Positions 784 to 12,775 of a stretch of DNA of 19,788 nt are shown piece after piece. This DNA comes from Clostridia bacterium. Lineage in GTDB: Bacteria; Bacillota_A; Clostridia; RUG12999. The position numbers and the translations under genes are program-made. The notes beneath the pieces were generated by a model. The model was not told where the DNA came from. It searched no databases and worked only from the letters and a program-made list of their open reading frames with translations. The stretch lies in NCBI GenBank assembly GCA_017558425.1, contig JAFYVD010000046.1, positions 1 through 19,788 of the forward strand. The letters are read 5' to 3'. The first letter of the stretch is position 1; each line of letters opens with the position of its first letter.

Positions 784-3700
784 TTACTTATAATATTTTA
801 CTGCGGAGTTGAAGATGTTCATTTCATATTCACCTTCAACGTTCTTGTAAAGACCACTGCCGATACGTTCGGAGTGACCCATTTTACCAAACACTCTGCC
901 GTCGGGAGAAGTGATACCCTCGATAGCATAATCGGATCCGTTGGGACAGAATCTGATGTCGGAAGTGGGGTTGCCGTCAAGGTCAACATACTGAGTAGCA
1001 ATCTGACCATTATCCGCAAGCTTTTTGATAAGCTCTTCCGAAGCGATAAATCTGCCTTCGCCGTGTGAAATGGGCACGGTATAGATTTCGCCGGGCTGAG
1101 CCATTGAAAGCCAGGGGGATTTGTTGGAAACAACCTTTGTGCGAACAAGTCTGGACTGGTGACGACCGATTACATTGTATGTAAGAGTCGGGCAGTTTTC
1201 GTCTGTGTCAATGATTTCGCCGTAAGGTACAAGGCCGAGTTTGATAAGAGCCTGGAAACCGTTACAGATACCGCACATTAAACCATCGCGGTTTTTCAGC
1301 AGGTTGTGAACTTCTTCTTTAACGATAGCGTTACGGAAGAAGGCTGTGATGAATTTACCCGAACCATCGGGTTCGTCACCGCCGGAGAATCCACCGGGGA
1401 TGAATATCATCTGTGCCTGTTTAACTCTTTCTGCAAAGTATTTAACGGAATTGTCAATACCTGCGGCAGAAAGGTTGTTGATTACGATAATTTCAGCTTT
1501 GCCGCCTGCTCTTTCAACTGCTTTTGCAGAATCGTATTCGCAGTTTGTACCGGGGAATACGGGGATAAGAACAGTGGGTGTAGCAGCTTTAACTGTGGAT
1601 ACACGTTTTTCGTAAGCGGGTTTTGTAAGGTCGGGGATATCGGCTTTGCCGTTATCAATATTGTTGCAGGGGAACACGGGCTCAAGTTTATCTTCATAAA
1701 TTTTGAGGAGTTCACCAAGGCAGAGGCTTTCGCTGCCGTAAACAATAGCCGCTTTTTCAGTTGTTTTACCGATAACTGTTCCAACAGAAACATCTCCGCA
1801 AACTTCAAGCACGAAAGCACCGTAGTTGTAACCGAAGATTTCTTCTTTGCAGATGTCTGCAAATTCAAAACCTATGTTGTTACCGAACGCCATTTTCATA
1901 ACTGCTTCAGCAACACCACCCATACCGGGAGTGTAAGCCGCTTTTATTTTGCCGTCACGAACGAGGCTTGCAACTGTGTCAAACAGAGCAATTTCTGATT
2001 CTGCCACGGGCAGACCGTTTTCGTCATATTCGGGTTTTAAGAGCACAACATTATTTCCGGCACATTTAAATTCGGGGGAGATAATGTTTTTGATTTTATC
2101 TGTTGTAACTGCGAAAGATACAAGTGTGGGCGGAACATCAATGTTTTCGAAAGATCCGCTCATAGAGTCTTTACCGCCGATTGCGGCAATGCCATAATCC
2201 ATCTGTGCAGAGAATGCACCAAGAAGTGCGGCGAGAGGTTTGCCCCAACGCTTGCCGTCTTTAAGCGGTTTTTCAAAGTATTCCTGGAATGTCAGGTAAA
2301 CATCTTTGAAATCTGCACCTGTTGCAATCAGTTTGGAAACAGATTCAACAACTGCAAGGTAAGCACTGTGATAAGGGCTCTTTTCAGCAATGAACGGGTT
2401 GTAACCCCAAGCCATCAGCGAACATGTGTCTGTGTCGCCTTTTTCAAGGGAAACTTTGTTAACCATTGCCTGAGAAGGTGTGAGCTGATATTTACCGCCG
2501 AAAGGCATAAGTACTGAACCGGCACCGATTGTGGAGTCGAAACGTTCGGAAAGTCCGCGTTTTGAACAGATGTTAAGGTCATCGGCGAGAGCTTTCATAC
2601 CTTCTGCGAAATCAGCGGGGATTTCTTTTTTATAAGCTTCGGGAGCGGCAGGAGCAACGTCAATATGCTTTTCCGCACCGTTGGAGTTTAAGAATTCTCT
2701 TGAAATGTTACAGATATCTTTGCCATTCCAGTTCATTACAAGGCGAGGCTCAGCAGTAACTTTCGCAACGATAGTAGCTTCAAGGTTTTCAGCCTGAGCA
2801 AGCTGAATAAATCTGTCAGCATCTTCGGGAGCAACAGCAACAGCCATTCTTTCCTGAGATTCACTGATTGCAAGTTCTGTACCGTCAAGACCGTCGTATT
2901 TTTTGGGAACTGCGTTAAGGTCAATTTCAAGACCATCTGCAAGTTCGCCGATAGCAACAGATACACCACCTGCACCAAAGTCGTTACAACGTTTGATAAG
3001 CTGAGAAGCTTCTTTGTTTCTGAAAAGTCTCTGGAGCTTTCTTTCTTCGGGAGCATTACCCTTCTGAACTTCAGCACCGCAGGATTCAAGAGACTGGAGT
3101 GTGTGAGATTTTGAAGAACCTGTCGCACCGCCACAACCGTCACGGCCTGTTCTGCCGCCGAGGAGGATGATAACATCGCCCGGAGCGGGTCTTTCACGAC
3201 GAACATTTTCAGCGGGAGCTGCCGCAATAACAGCACCGATTTCCATACGTTTTGCAACATAGCCGTCGTGATAGATTTCATCTACCTGACCTGTTGCAAG
3301 ACCAATCTGGTTACCGTAAGAACTGTAACCTGCAGCTGCTGTCTGAACAATTTTTCTCTGGGGGAGTTTACCCTCTATTGTTTCTTCAAGCGGTTTTAAC
3401 GGGTCTGCCGCACCTGTAACACGCATAGCACCGTAAACATATGAACGGCCTGAAAGCGGGTCACGGATTGCACCGCCGATACATGTAGCCGCACCACCGA
3501 AAGGTTCAATTTCTGTGGGGTGGTTGTGAGTTTCGTTTTTGAACAGAAGCAGCCAATCCTGGTCTTCGCCATCAACGGTAACAGTCATTTTAACTGTGCA
3601 TGCATTGATTTCTTCGGACTCATCAAGCTTGTCAAGTTTGCCGGCTTTTTTCAGATATTTAGCGGCAATTGTACCGATGTCCATAAGGTTAACGGGTTTT

Positions 3701-4476
3701 GTTCTGCCGATGTCGGCACGGGTTTTAACATATCTGTCGTAAGCGCTCTGAAGGAGTTTGTCTTCAAATTTAACGCTGTCGATAGTAGTAAGGAATGTGG
3801 TGTGACGGCAATGGTCAGACCAGTATGTATCAATCATACGGATTTCAGTGATGGTGGGGTTGCGGTTTTCGGAAATAAAATACTGCTGGCAGAATTTTAT
3901 ATCGTCGAGATCCATTGCAAGACCGTAATTTTTCACGAAATCAGAGAGACCCTTTTCGTCAAGCGAAATGAACCCTTCAAGAGTTTCGACAGATTCAGGG
4001 ATGTCATAGCTTGCCGCAAGAGTTTCGAAGGTTTCGAGAGTTGCTTCACGGCTTTCAACCGGGTTGATAACATATTTTTTAATAGCATCAACGTCGGCGT
4101 CTGAAATGTTGCCGCTTAAAATGAACACTTTTGCTGTGCGTACAGTAGGTCTGTCACCGCAGGAAATAATCTGAATGCACTGGGATGCCGAGTCAGCTCT
4201 CTGGTCAAACTGACCGGGGAGATATTCTGTGGCAAACACTTTGCCGCCTTTTGCATCGGGCATTTCGGTTGAAATAATATCAAGCTGAGGCTCGGAGAAA
4301 ACGGCTGTGCAAGAATAATCAAACAGGTCTTTTTCGATGTTTTCAACATCGTATCTGTTGATTATACGAAGGTCTGTGAGACCTTTTATACCCAGCAGGG
4401 AAACAATGTCGTTTTTAAGAGCTTTTGCTTCGTGAGCGAGCTCTTTTTTCTTTTCTACATAAATTCTGTATACCAT
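784..4476 (-). CDS. purL: Phosphoribosylformylglycinamidine (FGAM) synthase, single-chain PurL with fused glutamine amidotransferase
   Basis: It converts FGAR, glutamine and ATP to FGAM, the fourth step of purine synthesis. The 1230-residue chain fuses the synthase and glutaminase parts, so no separate PurS or PurQ is needed; this length fits the clostridial fused form. Visible motifs are YWSDHCRHTTF (residues 218-228), the ATP and metal-binding stretch KNETHNHPTEIEPFGG (313-328), and GGRTGRDGCGGATGSS (440-455). A class I glutaminase domain starts near 966, with the nucleophile Cys1071 in GICNGFQAL and the His1201/Glu1203 pair in GHSER. ATG 4476 is chosen because AAAGG (4489-4485) lies 8 nt upstream and the usual start MVYRIYVEKK follows. 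The open frame extends upstream into purD, but that extension has no family resemblance. It is the last gene of the operon, 4 nt after purD. All key residues appear intact, so this is a working glutaminase in the operon. Confidence 0.97.
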   Translation of the reverse strand: MVYRIYVEKKKELAHEAKALKNDIVSLLGIKGLTDLRIINRYDVENIEKDLFDYSCTAVFSEPQLDIISTEMPDAKGGKVFATEYLPGQFDQRADSASQCIQIISCGDRPTVRTAKVFILSGNISDADVDAIKKYVINPVESREATLETFETLAASYDIPESVETLEGFISLDEKGLSDFVKNYGLAMDLDDIKFCQQYFISENRNPTITEIRMIDTYWSDHCRHTTFLTTIDSVKFEDKLLQSAYDRYVKTRADIGRTKPVNLMDIGTIAAKYLKKAGKLDKLDESEEINACTVKMTVTVDGEDQDWLLLFKNETHNHPTEIEPFGGAATCIGGAIRDPLSGRSYVYGAMRVTGAADPLKPLEETIEGKLPQRKIVQTAAAGYSSYGNQIGLATGQVDEIYHDGYVAKRMEIGAVIAAAPAENVRRERPAPGDVIILLGGRTGRDGCGGATGSSKSHTLQSLESCGAEVQKGNAPEERKLQRLFRNKEASQLIKRCNDFGAGGVSVAIGELADGLEIDLNAVPKKYDGLDGTELAISESQERMAVAVAPEDADRFIQLAQAENLEATIVAKVTAEPRLVMNWNGKDICNISREFLNSNGAEKHIDVAPAAPEAYKKEIPADFAEGMKALADDLNICSKRGLSERFDSTIGAGSVLMPFGGKYQLTPSQAMVNKVSLEKGDTDTCSLMAWGYNPFIAEKSPYHSAYLAVVESVSKLIATGADFKDVYLTFQEYFEKPLKDGKRWGKPLAALLGAFSAQMDYGIAAIGGKDSMSGSFENIDVPPTLVSFAVTTDKIKNIISPEFKCAGNNVVLLKPEYDENGLPVAESEIALFDTVASLVRDGKIKAAYTPGMGGVAEAVMKMAFGNNIGFEFADICKEEIFGYNYGAFVLEVCGDVSVGTVIGKTTEKAAIVYGSESLCLGELLKIYEDKLEPVFPCNNIDNGKADIPDLTKPAYEKRVSTVKAATPTVLIPVFPGTNCEYDSAKAVERAGGKAEIIVINNLSAAGIDNSVKYFAERVKQAQMIFIPGGFSGGDEPDGSGKFITAFFRNAIVKEEVHNLLKNRDGLMCGICNGFQALIKLGLVPYGEIIDTDENCPTLTYNVIGRHQSRLVRTKVVSNKSPWLSMAQPGEIYTVPISHGEGRFIASEELIKKLADNGQIATQYVDLDGNPTSDIRFCPNGSDYAIEGITSPDGRVFGKMGHSERIGSGLYKNVEGEYEMNIFNSAVKYYK

Positions 4477-4480
4477 ATTC

Positions 4481-5749
4481 TTATCCTTTCTTGGCTTTAA
4501 GAGCTTTCTGACCGATGTCTTTGCGGTAGAAAGCATTTCCAAAGGAAACTTTTTTAACTTCGTTGTAAGATTTTTCAATAGCTTTTTCAAGTGTGTCGGC
4601 TGTAGCTGTTACGCCCAGAACACGTCCGCCACCCGAAAGAAGTTTTCCATCCTCAAGTTTTGCACCTGCAACATAGATTTCACCTTCGCCGTCTGTGGGA
4701 AGGGTGATTTCAAAACCTGTTTCATATTTTCCTGGATAGCCTGCAGATGCCATAATTACGCAACAAGCAGAGCCGGTGGAAAATTCAACTTCTGTTTCGG
4801 AAAGTGTTTCGTTTTCAACTGCTTTCATAATTTCGAACAGGTCGGATTTGAGCAGCGGAAGAACAACCTGAGTTTCGGGGTCGCCGAATCGGCAGTTGTA
4901 TTCAATAACTTTAGGACCATTCGGTGTAAGCATAAGGCCGAAATAGAGGCAACCTTTAAATGTTCTGCCTTCGGCGTTCATTGCATTCAATGTAGGAATG
5001 AAAATTGTTTCCATACACTCTTTTGCAATTTCATCGGTATAGTAGGGGTTGGGAGCAACCGTACCCATACCGCCGGTGTTAAGTCCCTGGTCGTTATCAA
5101 GTGCACGTTTGTGGTCCATGGAAGATACCATCGGAACAACGGTTTTACCGTCTGTGAAAGAAAGAACAGAAACTTCCGGACCTGTGAGAAACTCTTCGAT
5201 AACGATTCTGGAACCGCTTTCGCCGAAAACTTTGTCTTCCATCATAGATTTAACAGCCGCAATCGCATCTTCTCTTGTTTCGGCGATAATAACGCCTTTG
5301 CCGAGAGCCAGACCGTCAGCTTTGATAACTGTGGGGATAGGAGCTGTTTCAAGATAGGAAAGAGCCTCTGCCATATCGGTGAAAACCTGATATTCTGCAG
5401 TAGGAATTGAATATTTTTTCATAAGGTTTTTGGAGAAAACCTTGCTTCCTTCGATTTCAGCCGCTGCTTTTGAGGGGCCGAAACAAGGAATACCGATTTC
5501 ACGGAGTCTGTCGGTTACACCTAAAACGAGCGGGTCGTCGGGAGCAACAACGGCAAACTTAATATCGTTTGATTTCGCAAAATCAACAATAGCTTCAACA
5601 TCTTTTGCACCAATACCTGTGCAAACAGCATCGGCGGCGATACCGCCGTTGCCGGGAAGTGCATAGATTTCCGAAATTTCAGAACTTTTTTTAAGAGATT
5701 TTATAATAGCATGTTCGCGGCCACCGCCGCCCACAACCATTATTTTCAT
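4481..5749 (-). CDS. purD: Phosphoribosylamine-glycine ligase (GAR synthetase)
   Basis: It joins glycine to phosphoribosylamine using ATP, the second step of the pathway. It has 422 residues, the normal length for the family. The N-terminal nucleotide-like fold begins MKIMVVGGGGREHAI. The ATP-grasp domain contains KADGLALGKGVIIAE (143-157), EEFLTGPEVSV (185-195), NTGGMG (224-229) and the metal-binding end VIEYNCRFGDPETQ (281-294). ATG 5749 is preferred over the longer frame because AGGAGG (5763-5758) lies 8 nt upstream and the protein then begins at the conserved glycine-rich loop. The ribosome binding site lies immediately after the glyA stop, with 16 nt between the genes. Its substrates come from two neighbours: glycine from GlyA and phosphoribosylamine from the PurF-like protein. 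Confidence 0.97.
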   Translation of the reverse strand: MKIMVVGGGGREHAIIKSLKKSSEISEIYALPGNGGIAADAVCTGIGAKDVEAIVDFAKSNDIKFAVVAPDDPLVLGVTDRLREIGIPCFGPSKAAAEIEGSKVFSKNLMKKYSIPTAEYQVFTDMAEALSYLETAPIPTVIKADGLALGKGVIIAETREDAIAAVKSMMEDKVFGESGSRIVIEEFLTGPEVSVLSFTDGKTVVPMVSSMDHKRALDNDQGLNTGGMGTVAPNPYYTDEIAKECMETIFIPTLNAMNAEGRTFKGCLYFGLMLTPNGPKVIEYNCRFGDPETQVVLPLLKSDLFEIMKAVENETLSETEVEFSTGSACCVIMASAGYPGKYETGFEITLPTDGEGEIYVAGAKLEDGKLLSGGGRVLGVTATADTLEKAIEKSYNEVKKVSFGNAFYRKDIGQKALKAKKG

Positions 5750-5765
5750 AGGTGATTCCTCCTGA

Positions 5766-7007
5766 TTATTCGTAAATGGGGAACTTTTCGCAAAGCTCAA
5801 TTACTTCTTTTGTAACCTGGTCTTTTGTAGCTTCAAAATCAGAAGCAACAAGTTTGATCCAGTGAGCAATTTTCTTCATTTCTTCTTCTTTGAAACCACG
5901 TGATGTAACAGCAGGAGTACCGATACGAACACCACTTGTTACAAACGGGCTTTCAGGGTCGTTGGGGATTGTATTTTTGTTAGCTGTGATATGAACTTCG
6001 TCAAGACGGTGTTCCATTTCTTTACCTGTGATGCCGAAAGGACGAAGGTCAAGAAGCATCAGGTGGTTATCAGTACCGCCGGATACAATGTTAAAGCCTT
6101 CTTTAAGGAATTCTTCGGATAAAACTTTTGCATTTTTAACAATCTGTTTCTGATATTCTTTGAATTCATCTGTTAAAGCTTCGCCGAAAGCAACAGCTTT
6201 AGCAGCAATGATGTGCATGAGTGGTCCGCCCTGGATTCCGGGGAAGATAGCTTTATCAATCTGTTTTGCATATTCTTCTTTGCAGAGGATAAGGCCGCCA
6301 CGAGGACCGCGGAGAGTTTTGTGAGTTGTTGTTGTAACAACGTCAGCATAGGGAACGGGAGAGGGATGGAGACCTGCAGCAACAAGACCTGCGATGTGCG
6401 CGATGTCAACCATCATAATTGCGCCAACTTCGTCACAAATTTCGCGGATTTTTGCAAAGTCGATAGTTCTTGCGTATGCACTTGCACCCGAAACAATCAT
6501 TTTGGGTTTGCATTCAAGAGCGATTTCGCGCATTTTGTCATAGTCGATTCTGCCTGTTTCATCGTCAACACCGTAAGGAACAATGTTGAAATATTTACCG
6601 GAAATATTAACAGGGCTACCGTGAGAAAGGTGACCGCCGTGAGCAAGGTTCATGCCCATAACTGTGTCGCCCGGTTCGAGGAATGCGAAGAATACTGCGA
6701 GGTTAGCGTTAGCACCACTGTGAGGCTGAACATTAGCGTGTTCTGCACCGAAAAGCTTTTTAGCTCTTTCTCTTGCGATTTCTTCAACTTCGTCAACGTG
6801 GATACAACCGCCGTAATATCTTTTGCCCGGATAACCTTCTGCATATTTGTTTGTCAGAACACCGCCGGCAGCAAGAAGAACTGCTTCGGATACGATGTTT
6901 TCGGAAGCGATAAGCTCAATGTTGTGTTTCTGACGGGAAAGCTCTTTGTCGCAAGCGGCATAAACTTCGCTGTCATAGTTTTTAAGATTGTCAAAAAATT
7001 TACTCAT
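5766..7007 (-). CDS. glyA: Serine hydroxymethyltransferase
   Basis: This PLP enzyme interconverts serine plus THF with glycine plus 5,10-methylene-THF. The 413-residue protein has the normal length and motifs: [10 protein letters not shown] (31-40), [13 protein letters not shown] (55-67), the PLP-ring Asp201 with His204 in DIAHIAG, and the Schiff-base Lys230 in [14 protein letters not shown]. The start at 7007 is supported by AAGGAG (7022-7017), 9 nt upstream. Its position between the AICAR transformylase and purD makes metabolic sense: glycine feeds PurD, and the one-carbon unit, once oxidised to 10-formyl-THF by enzymes not in this window, feeds PurN and the AICAR transformylase. As part of this transcript it would also be under the ZTP riboswitch. 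Confidence 0.97.
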
Positions 7008-7032: not shown

Positions 7033-8220
7033 TTAATGGTGGAAAAGTCTCATATGTGTGAATGCCATTGAAATACCGAGCTTGTTGCAAGCATCGATTA
7101 CAAGCTGGTCGCGGATGGAACCGCCGGGCTGAGCAATGTAGCTTACGCCACTTTTTGCAGCACGTTCAATGTTGTCGCTGAAGGGGAAGAATGCATCCGA
7201 ACCGAGAGCAACGCCTTTGATGGAAGCAAGGTAAGCAACCTTTTCTTCTCTTGTGAAGGGTTCGGGCTGAGTTTTGAAGAACTGCTGCCACATTCCGTCT
7301 GCAATCACCTGGTCTGCATCAAAATCGGAAATGTAAAGGTCGATACAGTTGTCTCTGTCAGGTCTGCCGATTTCATCAAGGAAAGGCAGGTTCAGCACTT
7401 TGTCGTGCTGACGGAGATGCCAGTTATCAGCTTTCTGACCTGCAAGTCTTGTACAGTGAATTCTGGACTGCTGACCTGCGCCAACGCCGATTGCCTGACC
7501 ATCTGCCGCAAAGCAAACCGAGTTGGACTGTGTATATTTTAATGTAATAAGAGCAACGATGAGGTTTCTTACTGCATCTTCAGGTAGGTCTTTGTTTTCT
7601 GTAACAATTTCTGTGAGCAGTTCGCGATTGATTTCAAAATCGTTTCTGCCCTGTTCGAAAGTGATGCCGAAAACCTGTTTTCTTTCGATGGGGTCGGGAA
7701 CATAGTTTTCGTCAATTTTAACGATGTTGTATGTACCCTTACGTTTTGTTTTAAGAATTTCAAGAGCTTCGTCTGTGTAACCGGGAGCGATTACGCCGTC
7801 AGATACTTCTCTTGCGATGAGGGAAGCTGTAACTTTGTCACAAACATCGGAAAGAGCAATCCAGTCACCGAAAGAACTCATTCTGTCAGTACCTCTTGCA
7901 CGAGCATAAGCAAGAGCGAGGGGAGAAGAATCAAGGTCTGCGATATCGTCAACGTAGCAAGCCTTTTTGAGTTTGTCGCTCATAGGAAGTCCGAGAGCGG
8001 CGGATGTGGGGCTTACATGTTTGAAAGATGTTGCACAGGGGATACCGAGTGCAGCTTTAAGGTCGCGAACGAGCAGCCAGCTGTTGAAAGCATCAAGGAA
8101 GTTGATGTAACCGGGTTTGCCGTTTAAAATTTCAACAGGAAGGTCGCTTCCGTCGTGCATAAAAATTCTTGAAGGTTTCTGGTTGGGGTTACAACCGTAT
8201 TTAAGTTCAAAAGAATTCAT
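7033..8220 (-). CDS. purH: Stand-alone AICAR formyltransferase (C-terminal half of PurH only)
   Basis: It transfers a formyl group from 10-formyl-THF to AICAR (ZMP) to make FAICAR, the ninth step. The 395-residue chain covers only the transformylase; the MGS-like IMP cyclohydrolase domain that precedes it in ordinary bifunctional PurH is absent. The catalytic Lys-His pair is visible as K67-H68 in [13 protein letters not shown]. Other family motifs are [25 protein letters not shown] and a C-terminal [17 protein letters not shown] ending in RLFHH. The start ATG 8220 overlaps the previous stop by one base (TAATG), with GGAGG (8234-8230) 9 nt upstream, so the two genes are probably translationally coupled. 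The missing cyclohydrolase step is supplied by the neighbouring PurO-like gene. Its substrate ZMP is what the operon's riboswitch senses. Confidence 0.93.
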
Positions 8221-8951
8221 TACTGAAGTCCTCCTTCGTGTTTATTTACAATTCTTGTGTCAATTTCACCTGTTTTAAGGTTGGTGAAACGGACAAACAT
8301 AGAAATTTTGTTGTTTTCATCAAGAGCTTCCCAAACTTTTTTTGTAAGATCATCAATGTCATTGGGAAGGGAAATTCTTTCAGGTTCACCTGTGAAAGTG
8401 GGGAGAGGATTTCCGTCGCAGTTGTAGGTGTGAATGAAATGACCTACACCCGCGAGTGCAGGATATGTGAATGTATATCTGCTGCAAGCTGAACCTTCTG
8501 CATCGGCACTTTTTAAAATGTTCATTTTATAAGTGAAATCGCCGTTTGCAAAGTTGAGCATACCGCTGATTCTGGGAGTGAAGTTGGGAGCGTCGGGTTC
8601 GAACTCGCGAGTGTCGAGAGCTGCTTCGAAGCTTTCGCCTTTTGCAAGATGGTCGTAAACTGTATCTGTCTGGTCGCCATTTGTAACAATGAGTTTGTTT
8701 TCGAATTTTCTAACAGGCGAATAGATGATGAGAGAGGGGTCTGAAACCTTGCTTTCATCATAAGGATAAATGGTAATATCTTCGCCGTTAACTCGGAAAA
8801 CTCTGTTCCTTGAGTTTTCGCTTCTGCCCATAATGAAGTAGATTGCAACAGCGTTTTTACCGTCTGCGGTTTTGCCGATTGCAATACCTCTGCCGGGGTA
8901 TGTATTTTCTTTAAGAAGGTCTAAGAGACAGTGTGTTTCGTAAACGTTCAT
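8220..8951 (-). CDS. purO: PurO-like IMP cyclohydrolase
   Basis: It is predicted to close FAICAR to IMP, the last step, in place of the missing N-terminal half of PurH. The 243-residue protein resembles the archaeal-type IMP cyclohydrolase family (PurO, PF07826): YPGRGIAIGKT (18-28), MGRSENSRNRVF (41-52), and later EFEPDAPNFTPRISGM (116-131). ATG 8951 is chosen over the longer frame because GGAG (8963-8960) lies 8 nt upstream and the start overlaps the purN stop as ATGA; the earlier candidate would be buried in purN. The family call rests on motif recall and on context, since a stand-alone AICAR transformylase follows immediately and otherwise nothing here would make IMP. No transmembrane segment or signal is seen. 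Confidence 0.85.
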   Translation of the reverse strand: MNVYETHCLLDLLKENTYPGRGIAIGKTADGKNAVAIYFIMGRSENSRNRVFRVNGEDITIYPYDESKVSDPSLIIYSPVRKFENKLIVTNGDQTDTVYDHLAKGESFEAALDTREFEPDAPNFTPRISGMLNFANGDFTYKMNILKSADAEGSACSRYTFTYPALAGVGHFIHTYNCDGNPLPTFTGEPERISLPNDIDDLTKKVWEALDENNKISMFVRFTNLKTGEIDTRIVNKHEGGLQ

Positions 8952-9550
8952 TTCTTTTTCTCCTTTACAATCTGTTTTGATACAAGCTCGCAGGCTTTTG
9001 GAAGTATAATCCATTCAGCTTGCTGCATAACTCTTTTCTGCAAAATTTCGGGGGTGTCATTTGCGCGGATTTTCACAGCCTTTTGTGCAATGATTTTACC
9101 ACCGTCGGGAATCTCGTTCACAAAATGAACGGTAGCACCCGTAACTTTAACGCCGTATTTAAGTGCTTCTTCGTGAACCTTCAGTCCGTAATACCCTTTT
9201 CCGCAGAAAGATGGAATCAGCGCCGGATGAACATTGATGATACGGTTGGCAAAACGGGAAGTGAATTTTTCTGAAAGAATCTTCATAAATCCCGCAAGCA
9301 CTATGAGGTCAATATGTTCATCCTCAAGTTTTTTTATAAGTAAATCCTCAAAGTCGGGAGATTTAGAAGGGATAACTGCTGTGGCAATGCCGGCATTTTC
9401 AGCACGGGTGAGTGCAAAGGCATCGGGATTACCGGATATAACAAGCGAAATTTCACCGGTTTTGATAATTCCTGCTTTTTGCGCATCAATCATTGCCTGC
9501 AGATTTGTTCCTCCACCCGAAACAAGGACTGCTATTTTTGCTTTAATCAT
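8948..9550 (-). CDS. purN: Phosphoribosylglycinamide (GAR) formyltransferase, 10-formyl-THF dependent
   Basis: It formylates GAR to FGAR with 10-formyl-THF, the third step. The 200-residue protein has the typical Rossmann-like fold start [18 protein letters not shown] (6-23). The three catalytic residues of the family are present as Asn106 and His108 in [11 protein letters not shown] and Asp149 in PDGGKIIAQ. The loop [15 protein letters not shown] fits the family. Start ATG 9550 overlaps the purM stop (ATGA), with AAGGTG just upstream, and its own stop overlaps purO in the same way. The tight packing from purM to the AICAR transformylase suggests coupled translation. Confidence 0.96.
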
Positions 9551-10581
9551 AAGATAACACCTTCGTCGCCTTTAACGATTTCACCAATGATGTAAGCGTC
9601 TTCGCCGGCAGCTTTTAAGATGTCAAGAGATTTTGCTGCATCTTCTTTTGATACAACAATGCTCATACCTACGCCCATATTGAATGTGTTGAACATATCA
9701 CGTTCGGGAATGTTGCCACGTTTTGCGATAAGGTCGAAAATGGGGAGGATTTTAAGAGAAGATTTGTCAATCTTCGCAGAGTAACCTTCGGGAAGGCTTC
9801 TCGGAATATTTTCGTAAAAACCGCCGCCTGTGATATGGGAAATTGCTTTAACTTTAACTTCGTCCATAAGAGCGAGAACGGGTTTTACATAAATCTTTGT
9901 GGGAGTGAGAAGAGTTTCGCCGATTGATTTTCCGCCGAGCTCAGCAAGAGGAGTTGTGATGTCGCCGTTTTCTACATCGAGAACTTTTCTTACCAGAGAG
10001 AAACCATTTGAGTGAACACCGGAAGAGGGGAGAGCGATAATTACATCGCCTTCTGTAACTGTGGTGTTGTCAAGAATTTTGTCTTTATCAACCACGCCTG
10101 TGGAATAGCCTGCAAGGTCATATTCCTTTTCGGGATAGAAACCGGGCATTTCAGCAGTTTCACCACCGATAAGTGCCGCACCTGCCTGAACGCAACCCTC
10201 AGCTACGCCGGATACGATAGCTGCAACTCTTTCGGGGTCGTTTTTGCCAACTGCAATGTAGTCAAGGAAAAATAAGGGTTTTGCACCGCTGCAGATAATG
10301 TCGTTAACGCACATAGCAACACAGTCGATACCAACTGTATCGTGCTTGTCCATTTTAAATGCAATTTTAAGTTTTGTACCAACACCGTCAGTACCGCTTA
10401 CAAGAACGGGTTTTTTGATTCCTTCAAGGTCAAGCTCAAAGAGACCTCCGAAACCGCCCAGACCACCGATTACACCGGGGGTAACTGTTCTTGTAATGTG
10501 AGTTTTCATAAGTTCAACCGCTTTGTAACCGGCTGTGATGTCAACACCGGCATTTTTGTAACTTTCGCTGAAACTTTTCAT
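9547..10581 (-). CDS. purM: Phosphoribosylformylglycinamidine cyclo-ligase (AIR synthetase)
   Basis: It cyclises FGAM to AIR using ATP, the fifth step. The 344-residue protein is the usual length. It shows the PurM/PurL superfamily features: a glycine-rich stretch [12 protein letters not shown] (39-50), [12 protein letters not shown] (61-72), [12 protein letters not shown] (84-95), a GGETAEMPG motif and [14 protein letters not shown] near the C-terminal half. ATG 10581 has AAGG (10592-10589) 7 nt upstream. The gene lies 29 nt after the PurF-like gene and overlaps purN by four bases. Nothing unusual is seen. Confidence 0.97.
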
Positions 10582-10610: not shown

Positions 10611-12035
10611 TTATTCTTTACCTGTCCAACAATAGGTGCAAAGCTGACTTTCGTCAAGACCTATTGATTCGATAACACCTTCGAGTGACTGGAATTCCAG
10701 AGAAGCAAAGTTAAGCTTTTCGCAAATTCGTTTTCTTAAGTTTTTGCCACGTTCTGTAGCTGAATCACTGTATTCGCTGAGGTAGTTTAAACCTTCTTCA
10801 CCTTCAAGTTCAACTATAATCTGACGGGCGATAAGCTCCATATCACTTGTTGCTCTTGAGAAGTTGAGGTATTTACAAGCATACATAATGGGGGGGCAAG
10901 CGGAACGCATGTGAACCGACTTGGCTCCGTTTTCGTAAAGGAAATCAACCGTTCCTTTAAGCTGAGTTCCTCGAACAATTGAGTCATCCACGAAAAGAAG
11001 GTTTTTGTCCTGAATCAGTTCGTGAACGGGGATGAGTTTCATTCTTGCAACTTTGCTGCGTTCTTTCTGACTTGCAGGAATAAAACTTCTCATCCATGTA
11101 GGAGTGTATTTGATAAATGGTCTTGCAAAAGGAATTTTACTTTCGTTAGCATATCCGATTGCGTGGGGTGTACCCGAATCGGGAACGCCGCCAACATAAT
11201 CTATATCATCGATAAGACCTGTTTCTTTATCGTGCTTTGCCATAATCTCGCCGTTGCGATATCTCATGCTTTCGACATTTACGCCTTCGTAACTTGTTGT
11301 GGGATATCCGTAATAACTCCAGAGGAAAGAACAGATTTTAAGTTCCTTTCCGGCAGGGGCAAGCTGCTCAATGCCATCAAGAGTTACTTTGACAATTTCG
11401 CCGGGACCAAGTTCTTTTTCGGTTTCATAGCCGAGCTTCTGGTAAGCAAATGATTCAAAAGAAACACAGTAACCATCTTCTTTTTTGCCAATGAGAATGG
11501 GGAGACGACCAACGCGGTCTCTTGCAGCTATAAGTGAACCATCGTTGTTGAGAATGAGTATAGATGCTGTGCCCTGAATTACCTTCTGTGCAAATCTGAT
11601 ACCTTCAACGAAATCACTTTTCTGGTTTATAAGTGCTGCAACAAGCTCTGTTGAGTTTATCTTTCCGCCTGTCATTGTGCTGAAATGTCCGCCGCTGAAT
11701 GACAGATAGTGTTCAATCAATTCTTCGGAGTTATTGATAACGCCGATAATGCAGATTGCAAAAGTTCCGATGTTGGAACGAATGAGGAGTGGCTGAGGGT
11801 CGCTGTCGCTAATACAGCCGATTGCCGATGTGCCGCTCATTTCGTCAAAAACGTGTTCAAACTTTGTTCTGAAGGGTGAATTTTCAATGTTGTGAATTTC
11901 ACGCTGAAGACCGAGTTTGCTGTCATACGCCGCAATTCCGCCTCTTCTTGTACCTAAATGTGAATGATAGTCGGTGCCGAAGAAAACATCCGAAAGTGCA
12001 TCTTCTTTACAAATTGCTCCAAAAAAACCGCCCAT
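10611..12035 (-). CDS. purF: PurF-like amidophosphoribosyltransferase with a degenerate glutaminase domain
   Basis: By position and fold this is the first enzyme of the pathway (PRPP to phosphoribosylamine). It has 474 residues; ATG 12035 is supported by AAAGG (12048-12044), 8 nt upstream. The phosphoribosyltransferase half is well preserved: GGVPDSGTPHAIGYA (282-296), FIPASQKERSKVARMKL (318-334) and the PRPP loop LFVDDSIVRGT (348-358). Four cysteines (235, 387, 466, 469, the last two in CTYCWTG) match the Fe-S ligand pattern of Bacillus-type PurF. The N-terminal Ntn domain has the right outline but not the chemistry. Met is followed by GGFFGAI where the catalytic Cys should be, and by hand alignment to E. 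coli PurF the positions of Arg73, Asn101 and Asp127 are Ser, Ile and Ser (GCISDSD, CIIGVINN, INSTEL). No alternative start gives an N-terminal Cys. It may use free ammonia, be fed by a partner, or have another role. The gene symbol marks homology only. Confidence 0.85.
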   Translation of the reverse strand: MGGFFGAICKEDALSDVFFGTDYHSHLGTRRGGIAAYDSKLGLQREIHNIENSPFRTKFEHVFDEMSGTSAIGCISDSDPQPLLIRSNIGTFAICIIGVINNSEELIEHYLSFSGGHFSTMTGGKINSTELVAALINQKSDFVEGIRFAQKVIQGTASILILNNDGSLIAARDRVGRLPILIGKKEDGYCVSFESFAYQKLGYETEKELGPGEIVKVTLDGIEQLAPAGKELKICSFLWSYYGYPTTSYEGVNVESMRYRNGEIMAKHDKETGLIDDIDYVGGVPDSGTPHAIGYANESKIPFARPFIKYTPTWMRSFIPASQKERSKVARMKLIPVHELIQDKNLLFVDDSIVRGTQLKGTVDFLYENGAKSVHMRSACPPIMYACKYLNFSRATSDMELIARQIIVELEGEEGLNYLSEYSDSATERGKNLRKRICEKLNFASLEFQSLEGVIESIGLDESQLCTYCWTGKE

Positions 12036-12083
12036 AAATTTCGCCTTTCTGCCCAAAATAAAATGTTTTATTAAACGAACATA

Positions 12084-12122: not shown

Positions 12123-12617
12123 TTAATTGTTGTATTTCGCCGCAACTGAATCATTTGCGGAAAGAACCTTGTCCGCAGCTGATTTTCTCTGTGCGTCAAG
12201 CTTTGCCGCCAGATCTGAATCTGAAACGGCGATGATTTGCATTGCCAGAAGTGCTGCGTTGACAGCTCCGTCGATTGCAACTGTTGCTACGGGTATGCCT
12301 GAAGGCATCTGAACTGTTGAAAGCAGAGCGTCCAGACCATCAAGGGTTGATGATTTAACCGGTAAACCGATTACCGGCAAAGTGGTACAGGCTGCAACTG
12401 CGCCTGCAAGATGAGCCGCTTTACCTGCGGCTGCAATGATAACACCAAAGTCGTTTGCTCTGGCGTTTTCTGTGAACTCACGAACCTGCACGGGAGTGCG
12501 GTGAGCTGAGTATACGTGTACCTCGTAGGGTACTTCAAAATCTTTTAATGTTGTTATAGCTTTTTCAACAATGGGCAGGTCACTGTCGCTACCCATAAGA
12601 ATTCCAACTTTTTTCAT
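12123..12617 (-). CDS. purE: N5-carboxyaminoimidazole ribonucleotide mutase / AIR carboxylase
   Basis: It makes CAIR, the sixth step. The 164-residue protein begins MKKVGILMGSDSDLPIVEKA and carries SAHRTP (37-42), a glycine/alanine loop IIAAAGKAAHLAGAVAA (60-76) and LSTVQMPSGIPVATVAID (99-116), all typical of PurE. ATG 12617 is taken because the protein then starts at the conserved first strand; GGAAAGG (12636-12630) lies 12 nt upstream, a rather long spacing. The usual partner PurK is not in this window, so whether this enzyme takes N5-CAIR (class I) or AIR plus CO2 (class II) is open; the loop keeps the AAHL feature usual for class I but replaces GG by GK. It is the first gene after the riboswitch, and the terminator's T tract ends right at its ribosome binding site. 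Confidence 0.95.
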   Translation of the reverse strand: MKKVGILMGSDSDLPIVEKAITTLKDFEVPYEVHVYSAHRTPVQVREFTENARANDFGVIIAAAGKAAHLAGAVAACTTLPVIGLPVKSSTLDGLDALLSTVQMPSGIPVATVAIDGAVNAALLAMQIIAVSDSDLAAKLDAQRKSAADKVLSANDSVAAKYNN

Positions 12618-12636: not shown

Positions 12637-12680
12637 AAAAATTAAAAACGGACAGACCTATACTGTTTATAGATCTGCCC
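12637..12680 (-). terminator. Intrinsic terminator of the ZTP riboswitch (expression platform)
   Basis: A 13-bp stem pairs 12680-12668 (GGGCAGATCTATA) with 12662-12650 (TATAGGTCTGTCC), including two G-U pairs, around a 5-nt loop AACAG. It is followed by five T (12648-12644), then AA and five more T. Its 5' arm begins inside the conserved aptamer end CUGGGCA, so the folded aptamer and the terminator exclude each other. Ligand binding should therefore allow read-through into purE. Confidence 0.92.
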
Positions 12681-12753
12681 AGACGGTCGACACTTTTAAT
12701 ATTTTTTGCTCCCCGGCAGTTAAAACCTGCCAAATCCGTCAGTTGCAAAAAAC
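12677..12753 (-). ncRNA. ZTP (pfl) riboswitch aptamer controlling the purine operon
   Basis: The minus strand folds as the pfl/ZTP class. P1 pairs TTTTTTGC (12752-12745) with GCAAAAAA (12709-12702). P2 is GGCAG (12731-12727) with CTGCC (12719-12715), followed by the conserved CCGGGGAGC. After a 16-nt linker comes CCGTCTGGGCA (12686-12676), the 3' signature usually written CCGCCUGGGCA. The pseudoknot partners GACGG (12740-12736) and CCGTC (12686-12682) are exactly complementary. This matches a compensating change from the usual GGCGG/CCGCC. The class senses ZTP/ZMP, which builds up when 10-formyl-THF is short, and activates purine and folate genes. Here it heads an operon containing both formyltransferases and glyA. 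Confidence 0.93.
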
Positions 12754-12775
12754 AGTTTATATAACTTATATGAAT

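Follow-up and report, generated by a model that had tools for sequence, protein, structure and literature searches.

The purine operon and its PurF homologue

The window, that is, the whole stretch of 19,788 nucleotides analysed here, carries a purine operon on its minus strand, headed by a ZMP/ZTP riboswitch (Table 1). PurF is the textbook glutamine amidotransferase (EC 2.4.2.14), and the only PurF homologue within the window, as already claimed for the operon in a preliminary description, is a protein of a type that starts with GGFF; its gene is called purF' below. The operon also encodes PurD, the consumer of phosphoribosylamine, while a PurO-like IMP cyclohydrolase and a stand-alone AICAR formyltransferase replace the bifunctional PurH. 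A place among purine genes is common, with at least two others found beside purF' in 75 of 80 loci from relatives. Adjoining the operon, the segment 12938-19697 holds genes on both strands for an HtrA-like protease-domain protein, a 473-aa protein without an NCBIfam match, a nucleotide-sugar dehydrogenase, an epimerase-like protein and a glycosyltransferase-like protein.

Table 1. Coordinates of the operon and of the parts of purF' (window numbering).
Feature	Position	Strand	Remarks
ZMP/ZTP riboswitch heading the purine operon	12670..12756	minus	Rfam RF01750, 60.5 bits (gathering score 39)
purE	12123..12617	minus	ATG at 12617 (the listed ORF reaches a TTG at 12638); TIGR01162 and Pfam AIRC
Shine-Dalgarno-like stretch AGAAAGGCG	12042..12050	minus	read just upstream of the purF' ATG
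purF' (GGFF-type PurF homologue)	10611..12035	minus	474 aa, ATG at 12035, stop 10611-10613
Met-Gly-Gly replacing Met-Cys-Gly, catalytic Cys1 lost	12027..12035	minus	Cys1 position Gly in 147/151, Ser in 4/151
purF' N-terminal Ntn (glutaminase-like) domain, residues 1-231	11343..12035	minus	glutamine site lost, domain conserved
Signature D22-Y23-H24-S25-H26-L27	11955..11972	minus	every residue invariant in 151/151; ordinary PurF has Arg at the L27 position
Signature P54-F55-R56-T57-x-F59	11859..11876	minus	five named residues in 151/151; gap in 81 ordinary PurF
purF' C-terminal phosphoribosyltransferase domain, residues 232-474	10614..11342	minus	
Cys235, presumed [4Fe-4S] ligand	11331..11333	minus	151/151
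PRPP loop LFVDDSIVRGT, residues 347-357	10965..10997	minus	D350, D351, S352, V354, R355, G356 and T357 in 151/151
Cys387, presumed [4Fe-4S] ligand	10875..10877	minus	151/151
Cys466, presumed [4Fe-4S] ligand	10638..10640	minus	151/151
Cys469, presumed [4Fe-4S] ligand	10629..10631	minus	151/151
purM	9547..10581	minus	TIGR00878, 457 bits
purN	8948..9550	minus	TIGR00639, 190 bits
PurO-like IMP cyclohydrolase	8220..9014	minus	PF07826; real start probably downstream of the one given, since homologues listed are mostly 238-244 aa
Stand-alone AICAR formyltransferase (PRK07106 type)	7033..8220	minus	NF005492, 664 bits
glyA	5766..7007	minus	NF000586
purD	4481..5800	minus	TIGR00877, 527 bits
purL (FGAM synthase fusion that includes a glutaminase part)	784..4590	minus	TIGR01857, 1869 bits; FGAM_synth_I residues 1009-1265

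The window protein scored 173.4 bits against the NCBIfam purF model TIGR01134 and did not reach its equivalog cut-off of 350 bits. In a homologue search with the protein, all 8000 scored candidates matched, a set that may include ordinary PurF beyond the 120 matches listed. The names of the matches confirmed the statement of the preliminary description that, in anaerobes, proteins of the MGGFF type carry the annotation amidophosphoribosyltransferase.

The ORF can be extended by seven codons upstream of the ATG, to a TTG, and no Cys lies ahead of GGFF; the mature N-terminus GGFFGAI and the lack of any upstream start yielding a Cys thus stood as described. Among the relatives, a Cys somewhere in the 30 in-frame codons before the start was found at 14 of 144 motif-bearing loci, indicating that no upstream Cys is conserved. 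The preliminary description had named Cys9 as an example of a catalytic residue that the true start or processing might expose. Only some relatives have a Cys at this position, the others having Ser, Arg, Gly, Leu or a different residue. Since the position varies, Cys9 is an unlikely hidden nucleophile, and a concealed start or processing event exposing a Cys was rejected on both counts.

Loss of the glutamine site and conservation of the PRPP half

The window protein and 150 relatives (L001-L110, L171-L210) were aligned, 151 sequences in all, against 81 ordinary PurF proteins from fetched loci (one of 82 such loci was left out for lack of a CG motif in the searched stretch). The Cys1 position is never occupied by Cys. 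The Arg loop that binds glutamine in ordinary PurF (H73-R75-Y76-T78 in the numbering of the L111 PurF) is a gap in 151/151, and Leu takes the place of the Arg in the LQHRG stretch of ordinary PurF, again in 151/151. The equivalent of the pocket Asn is Ile97 in the window protein and Ile, Val or Thr in all 151 sequences, while that of the pocket Asp is Ser128, with Ser, Ala or Thr in 117/151. These Arg, Asn and Asp positions are presumably E. coli Arg73, Asn101 and Asp127. The preliminary description had read them as Ser, Ile and Ser; the Ile, the second Ser and the loss of the Arg were recovered, but the replacement of Arg73 by Ser depends on the alignment, as the region is a gap in every sequence.

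The PRPP-binding half was retained. The DDSxVRG residues of the PRPP loop and the four cysteines are present in every aligned sequence; we presume the latter to be [4Fe-4S] ligands by analogy with B. subtilis PurF. The predicted model of the window protein (pLDDT 91.5) has the two-domain PurF fold and matched solved PurF structures over its full length; further matches to GlmS, GOGAT, AsnB and OPRT are expected domain relatives. The initial claim of a PurF homologue that has lost its glutaminase site and kept its PRPP half was therefore borne out, and the alignment that had been proposed as a check gave the same answer in all 151 sequences. Loss of the glutaminase site is fixed across the GGFF-type family.

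The N-terminal domain shows a conservation pattern of its own. Its invariant residues are D22, Y23, H24, S25, H26, L27, H48, P54, F55, R56, T57, F59 and R177, and 49 family-specific near-invariant positions were counted in purF', including H291 and Q358, the latter adjoining the PRPP loop. A decaying pseudo-domain was ruled out, since the ratio of N-domain to C-domain differences (1.24) is close to that of ordinary PurF (1.15).

Ordinary PurF, nitrogen genes and GOGAT in purF' genomes

The genome survey covered 297 genomes, metagenome-assembled in part, from the order of G001, a relative of the window; 90% completeness was requested, the values not being displayed. Ordinary PurF, counted at E < 1e-100, was found in 207/297 genomes (206 over the cut-off of the tool). 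Both types were present in 97 genomes, purF' only in 69, ordinary PurF only in 110 and neither in 21. A full ordinary PurF was thus lacking in 69 of the 166 purF' carriers, including one genome with a partial match (G255), and was present in tandem or elsewhere in the other 97. Among the rows nearest to the window on the tree, G001 and G309 have purF' only and G219 has both. In 50 genomes of close relatives, corresponding to 50 of the 80 loci and mostly separate from the survey, 37 had purF' only, 12 had ordinary PurF above the cut-off and one (G038) had it in two pieces; at least six other purine genes stood beside purF' in 24 of these 37.

Retention of purD in purF'-only genomes (67/69) was as frequent as in carriers of ordinary PurF (97/97 with both types, 107/110 with ordinary PurF only), and purD was found in 6/21 of the genomes with neither. 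The two purF' carriers without a purD match are G068 and G176. In many genomes (G210, G060, G164, G216, G222, G312 and others), the purD match was flagged with one internal stop and perhaps runs past the real stop. A phylum-wide spread of purF' was set aside, as the type occurred in 21 of 348 genomes of a phylum sample (E < 1e-100), one of which (G539) carries two GGFF-type genes. Bacteroides and other phyla may also include purF' carriers.

The surroundings of ordinary purF were scored for nitrogen genes, namely glutamine synthetase (type III or I), GOGAT domains, ammonium transporter or AsnB within about 10 kb, the fetched stretches being shorter than 10 kb per side where contigs end and the family names being verified on one example each. 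Since the first 40 loci had supplied the enriched clusters from which the queries were picked, the fresh half of the loci is the fair test. Its group with both types (A2) comprised 17 of 20 loci: a 100-base piece (L230) was left out, and G211 and G188 (L228, L229) have ordinary PurF only and were counted in the corresponding control group (B2). In genomes with both types outside tandem, ordinary purF lay near nitrogen genes at 31/57 loci (21/40 in the first set, 10/17 in the fresh one), compared with 3/42 controls with ordinary PurF only (0/20 and 3/22). The two-sided Fisher test, uncorrected for kinship, gave p values of 4.6e-7 for the combined sets and 0.0055 for the fresh set. The reverse held for purine genes: at least two others stood beside ordinary purF in 16/20 and, in the fresh set, 13/22 of the ordinary-only genomes, against 4/40 and 3/17 of the non-tandem loci with both types. 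On the other side, 26 of the 57 loci have no nitrogen gene nearby and 7 of the 57 lie in the purine operon, and G211 carries a full nitrogen cluster (L228) despite having ordinary PurF only. An ammonium transporter homologue is encoded in the nitrogen clusters of L111, L115, L119, L120, L122, L127, L139, L141 and L142; in L115, the one example checked, an AmtB-type transporter is fused to a C-terminal PII domain.

GOGAT, scored by PF01645 at E < 1e-50, was present in 90/97 genomes with both types and in 76/110 with ordinary PurF only, against 6/69 with purF' only and 3/21 with neither. GOGAT is absent from 34 of the 110 ordinary-only genomes, which keep a glutamine-dependent PurF. A tree was built from 128 PurF' proteins, 127 from genomes and one from the window, as no usable sequence came from 3 of 130 loci. 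Counting well-supported branches, ordinary PurF switches between present and absent at least 11 times; the best tree has 23 such changes, compared with 42.0 after shuffling, so that the absence of ordinary PurF is clustered. Of 11 independent pairs, most often 10 had GOGAT going with ordinary PurF and 1 had it going against (p 0.012 at the median, from 0.012 to 0.065). The absence of GOGAT may track genome reduction or kinship. The ammonia-using asparagine synthetase AsnA was also considered as an indicator of life on ammonia and was rejected, since it showed only a mild trend (53/69 with purF' only, 55/97 with both, 58/110 with ordinary PurF only) and the genomes with neither type looked alike (16/21).

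In at least 25 genomes, purF' and ordinary purF are neighbours on one strand, purF' preceding its partner in 19 and following it in 6. The tandem loci fetched all lay among purine genes (20/20) and none near nitrogen genes (0/20). Coupled divergence of tandem partners was not found at the level of overall identity, which was 0.307 within and 0.306 between the 20 tandem genomes compared.

In 13 of the 20 divergent members fetched, no purine gene lies in the fetched stretch, and therefore the role need not be common to the whole family; those outside the purine operon may have a differing one. These 13 GGFF-type genes (L198-L210) encode proteins 56-59% identical to the window protein, no neighbour cluster is common to more than two of them, and one (L209) belongs to G068, which was mentioned above for its missing purD match.

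Proposed function and comparison with known systems

Judging from the sequence data, we consider it quite likely that purF' encodes a functional enzyme for the first step of purine synthesis, one that has lost the use of glutamine and forms phosphoribosylamine from PRPP and free ammonia. The phosphoribosyltransferase domain would join free ammonia to PRPP, giving 5-phosphoribosylamine, the substrate of PurD, and the former glutaminase domain, still conserved, may serve in structure, channelling or gating. This ammonia reading rests on E. coli PurF, whose Cys1 mutants lose the use of glutamine and keep that of ammonia, according to PMC3261824, citing Mei and Zalkin 1989. Because 69 of the 166 carriers lack a full ordinary PurF and 67 of these 69 keep purD, purF' probably supplies phosphoribosylamine alone in such genomes, most simply from free ammonia. 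Of the two branches left by the preliminary description, an ammonia-dependent or partner-fed enzyme is thus favoured as the general rule, also by the position in the operon, while a true PurF elsewhere applies to the 97 carriers with both types and fails for the 69.

If the enzyme were fed by a partner, another glutaminase would release the ammonia; this could be ordinary PurF, joined with PurF' in a mixed oligomer, or an unlinked protein. The tandem pairs would suit a hetero-oligomer, and the N-terminal domain is conserved, but the carriers that lack a full ordinary PurF speak against such an arrangement, and no recurrent separate glutaminase was seen by eye among the 45 commonest neighbour ORF clusters of purF' loci, drawn from an ORF list that misses genes. 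The equal identities within and between tandem genomes point the same way as weak evidence, and we regard this alternative as rather unlikely. A regulatory or neofunctionalised paralogue, which would bind PRPP or nucleotides or form a different product while the true PurF is encoded elsewhere, is distinctly unlikely. The 97 genomes with both types, the family-specific positions such as Q358 and H291 and the location of divergent members outside the purine operon are in its favour; the unchanged PRPP loop, the placement of the gene in the purine operon and the purD retained by purF'-only genomes are against it, all the more as purD is scarce in genomes with neither type, which implies that its retention tracks having some PurF.

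The rebuilt N-terminal domain, with its D22, Y23, H24, S25, H26, H48 and R56, could instead cleave some non-glutamine substrate without relying on a Cys and so provide a new amide or amine donor. Its own invariant set, the absence of decay and the intact predicted Ntn fold are compatible with new chemistry, but with Gly, rarely Ser, following Met in place of the N-terminal Cys, and with the arginine loop and the pocket Asn and Asp gone, we judge it very improbable. Ordinary PurF could also be merely missing from incomplete assemblies, as the metagenomic origin of the genomes, their undisplayed completeness values and the partial matches in G255 and G038 might suggest. Such an artefact is hardly credible given that purD was recovered in nearly all purF'-only genomes, that absence is clustered on the tree and that a mostly separate genome set gave 37/50 with purF' only.

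Returning to the ammonia-dependent enzyme, the pairing of ordinary PurF with nitrogen-scavenging genes suggests an isozyme switch. In genomes with both types, gene neighbourhood would assign purF' to ammonia-rich growth and ordinary purF to nitrogen limitation. Extended to gut Clostridia, the proposal is that the operon PurF' would run on ammonia, that under nitrogen scarcity PurF would act together with glutamine synthetase, GOGAT, Amt-PII and AsnB, and that lineages losing GOGAT would have given up the glutamine-dependent PurF too and now depend on PurF' by itself; we hold the chances of this wider scheme to be evenly balanced.

If purF', whose clade is common in gut and rumen Clostridia, acts as proposed, the annotation and metabolic models of its carriers are wrong on the nitrogen cost of purines and on ammonium dependence, and glutamine analogues should spare the first purine step in purF' species. 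The analysis adds a bacterial clade that has a distinctive signature, in which the loss is fixed, which in many genomes provides the only full PurF, and which is linked to nitrogen genes.

Pairs of ammonia-using and glutamine-using routes are familiar from AsnA and AsnB and from GDH and GS/GOGAT, and the same logic is proposed for purF' and purF. Unlike those pairs, purF' and purF are both PurF homologues, and their proposed regulation is drawn from gene neighbourhood only. Compared with canonical PurF (B. subtilis 1ao0/1gph, E. coli 1ecf), purF' shares the two-domain fold over its whole length, the PRPP loop, the four Fe-S-type cysteines and the purine operon, and differs in lacking Cys1, the glutamine loop and the pocket Asn and Asp, with 21-33% identity and 173 bits against a cut-off of 350. 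In the open-access literature, a paper on archaeal PurF' was found and none was evident on the bacterial GGFF-type clade. According to that paper (PMC3261824, 2011), Crenarchaeota have a Cys-less PurF', each alongside a true PurF, and ammonia dependence is offered as a possibility. The Clostridia purF' resembles what is described there as a Cys1-less PurF homologue near purine genes and a possible ammonia-dependent PRPP aminotransferase. In contrast to these Crenarchaeota, where a true PurF always accompanies PurF', the bacterial type is the only full PurF in 69/297 sampled genomes, and purF'-only bacteria would make the 2011 archaeal hypothesis testable by knock-out and enzymology without a confusing second PurF.
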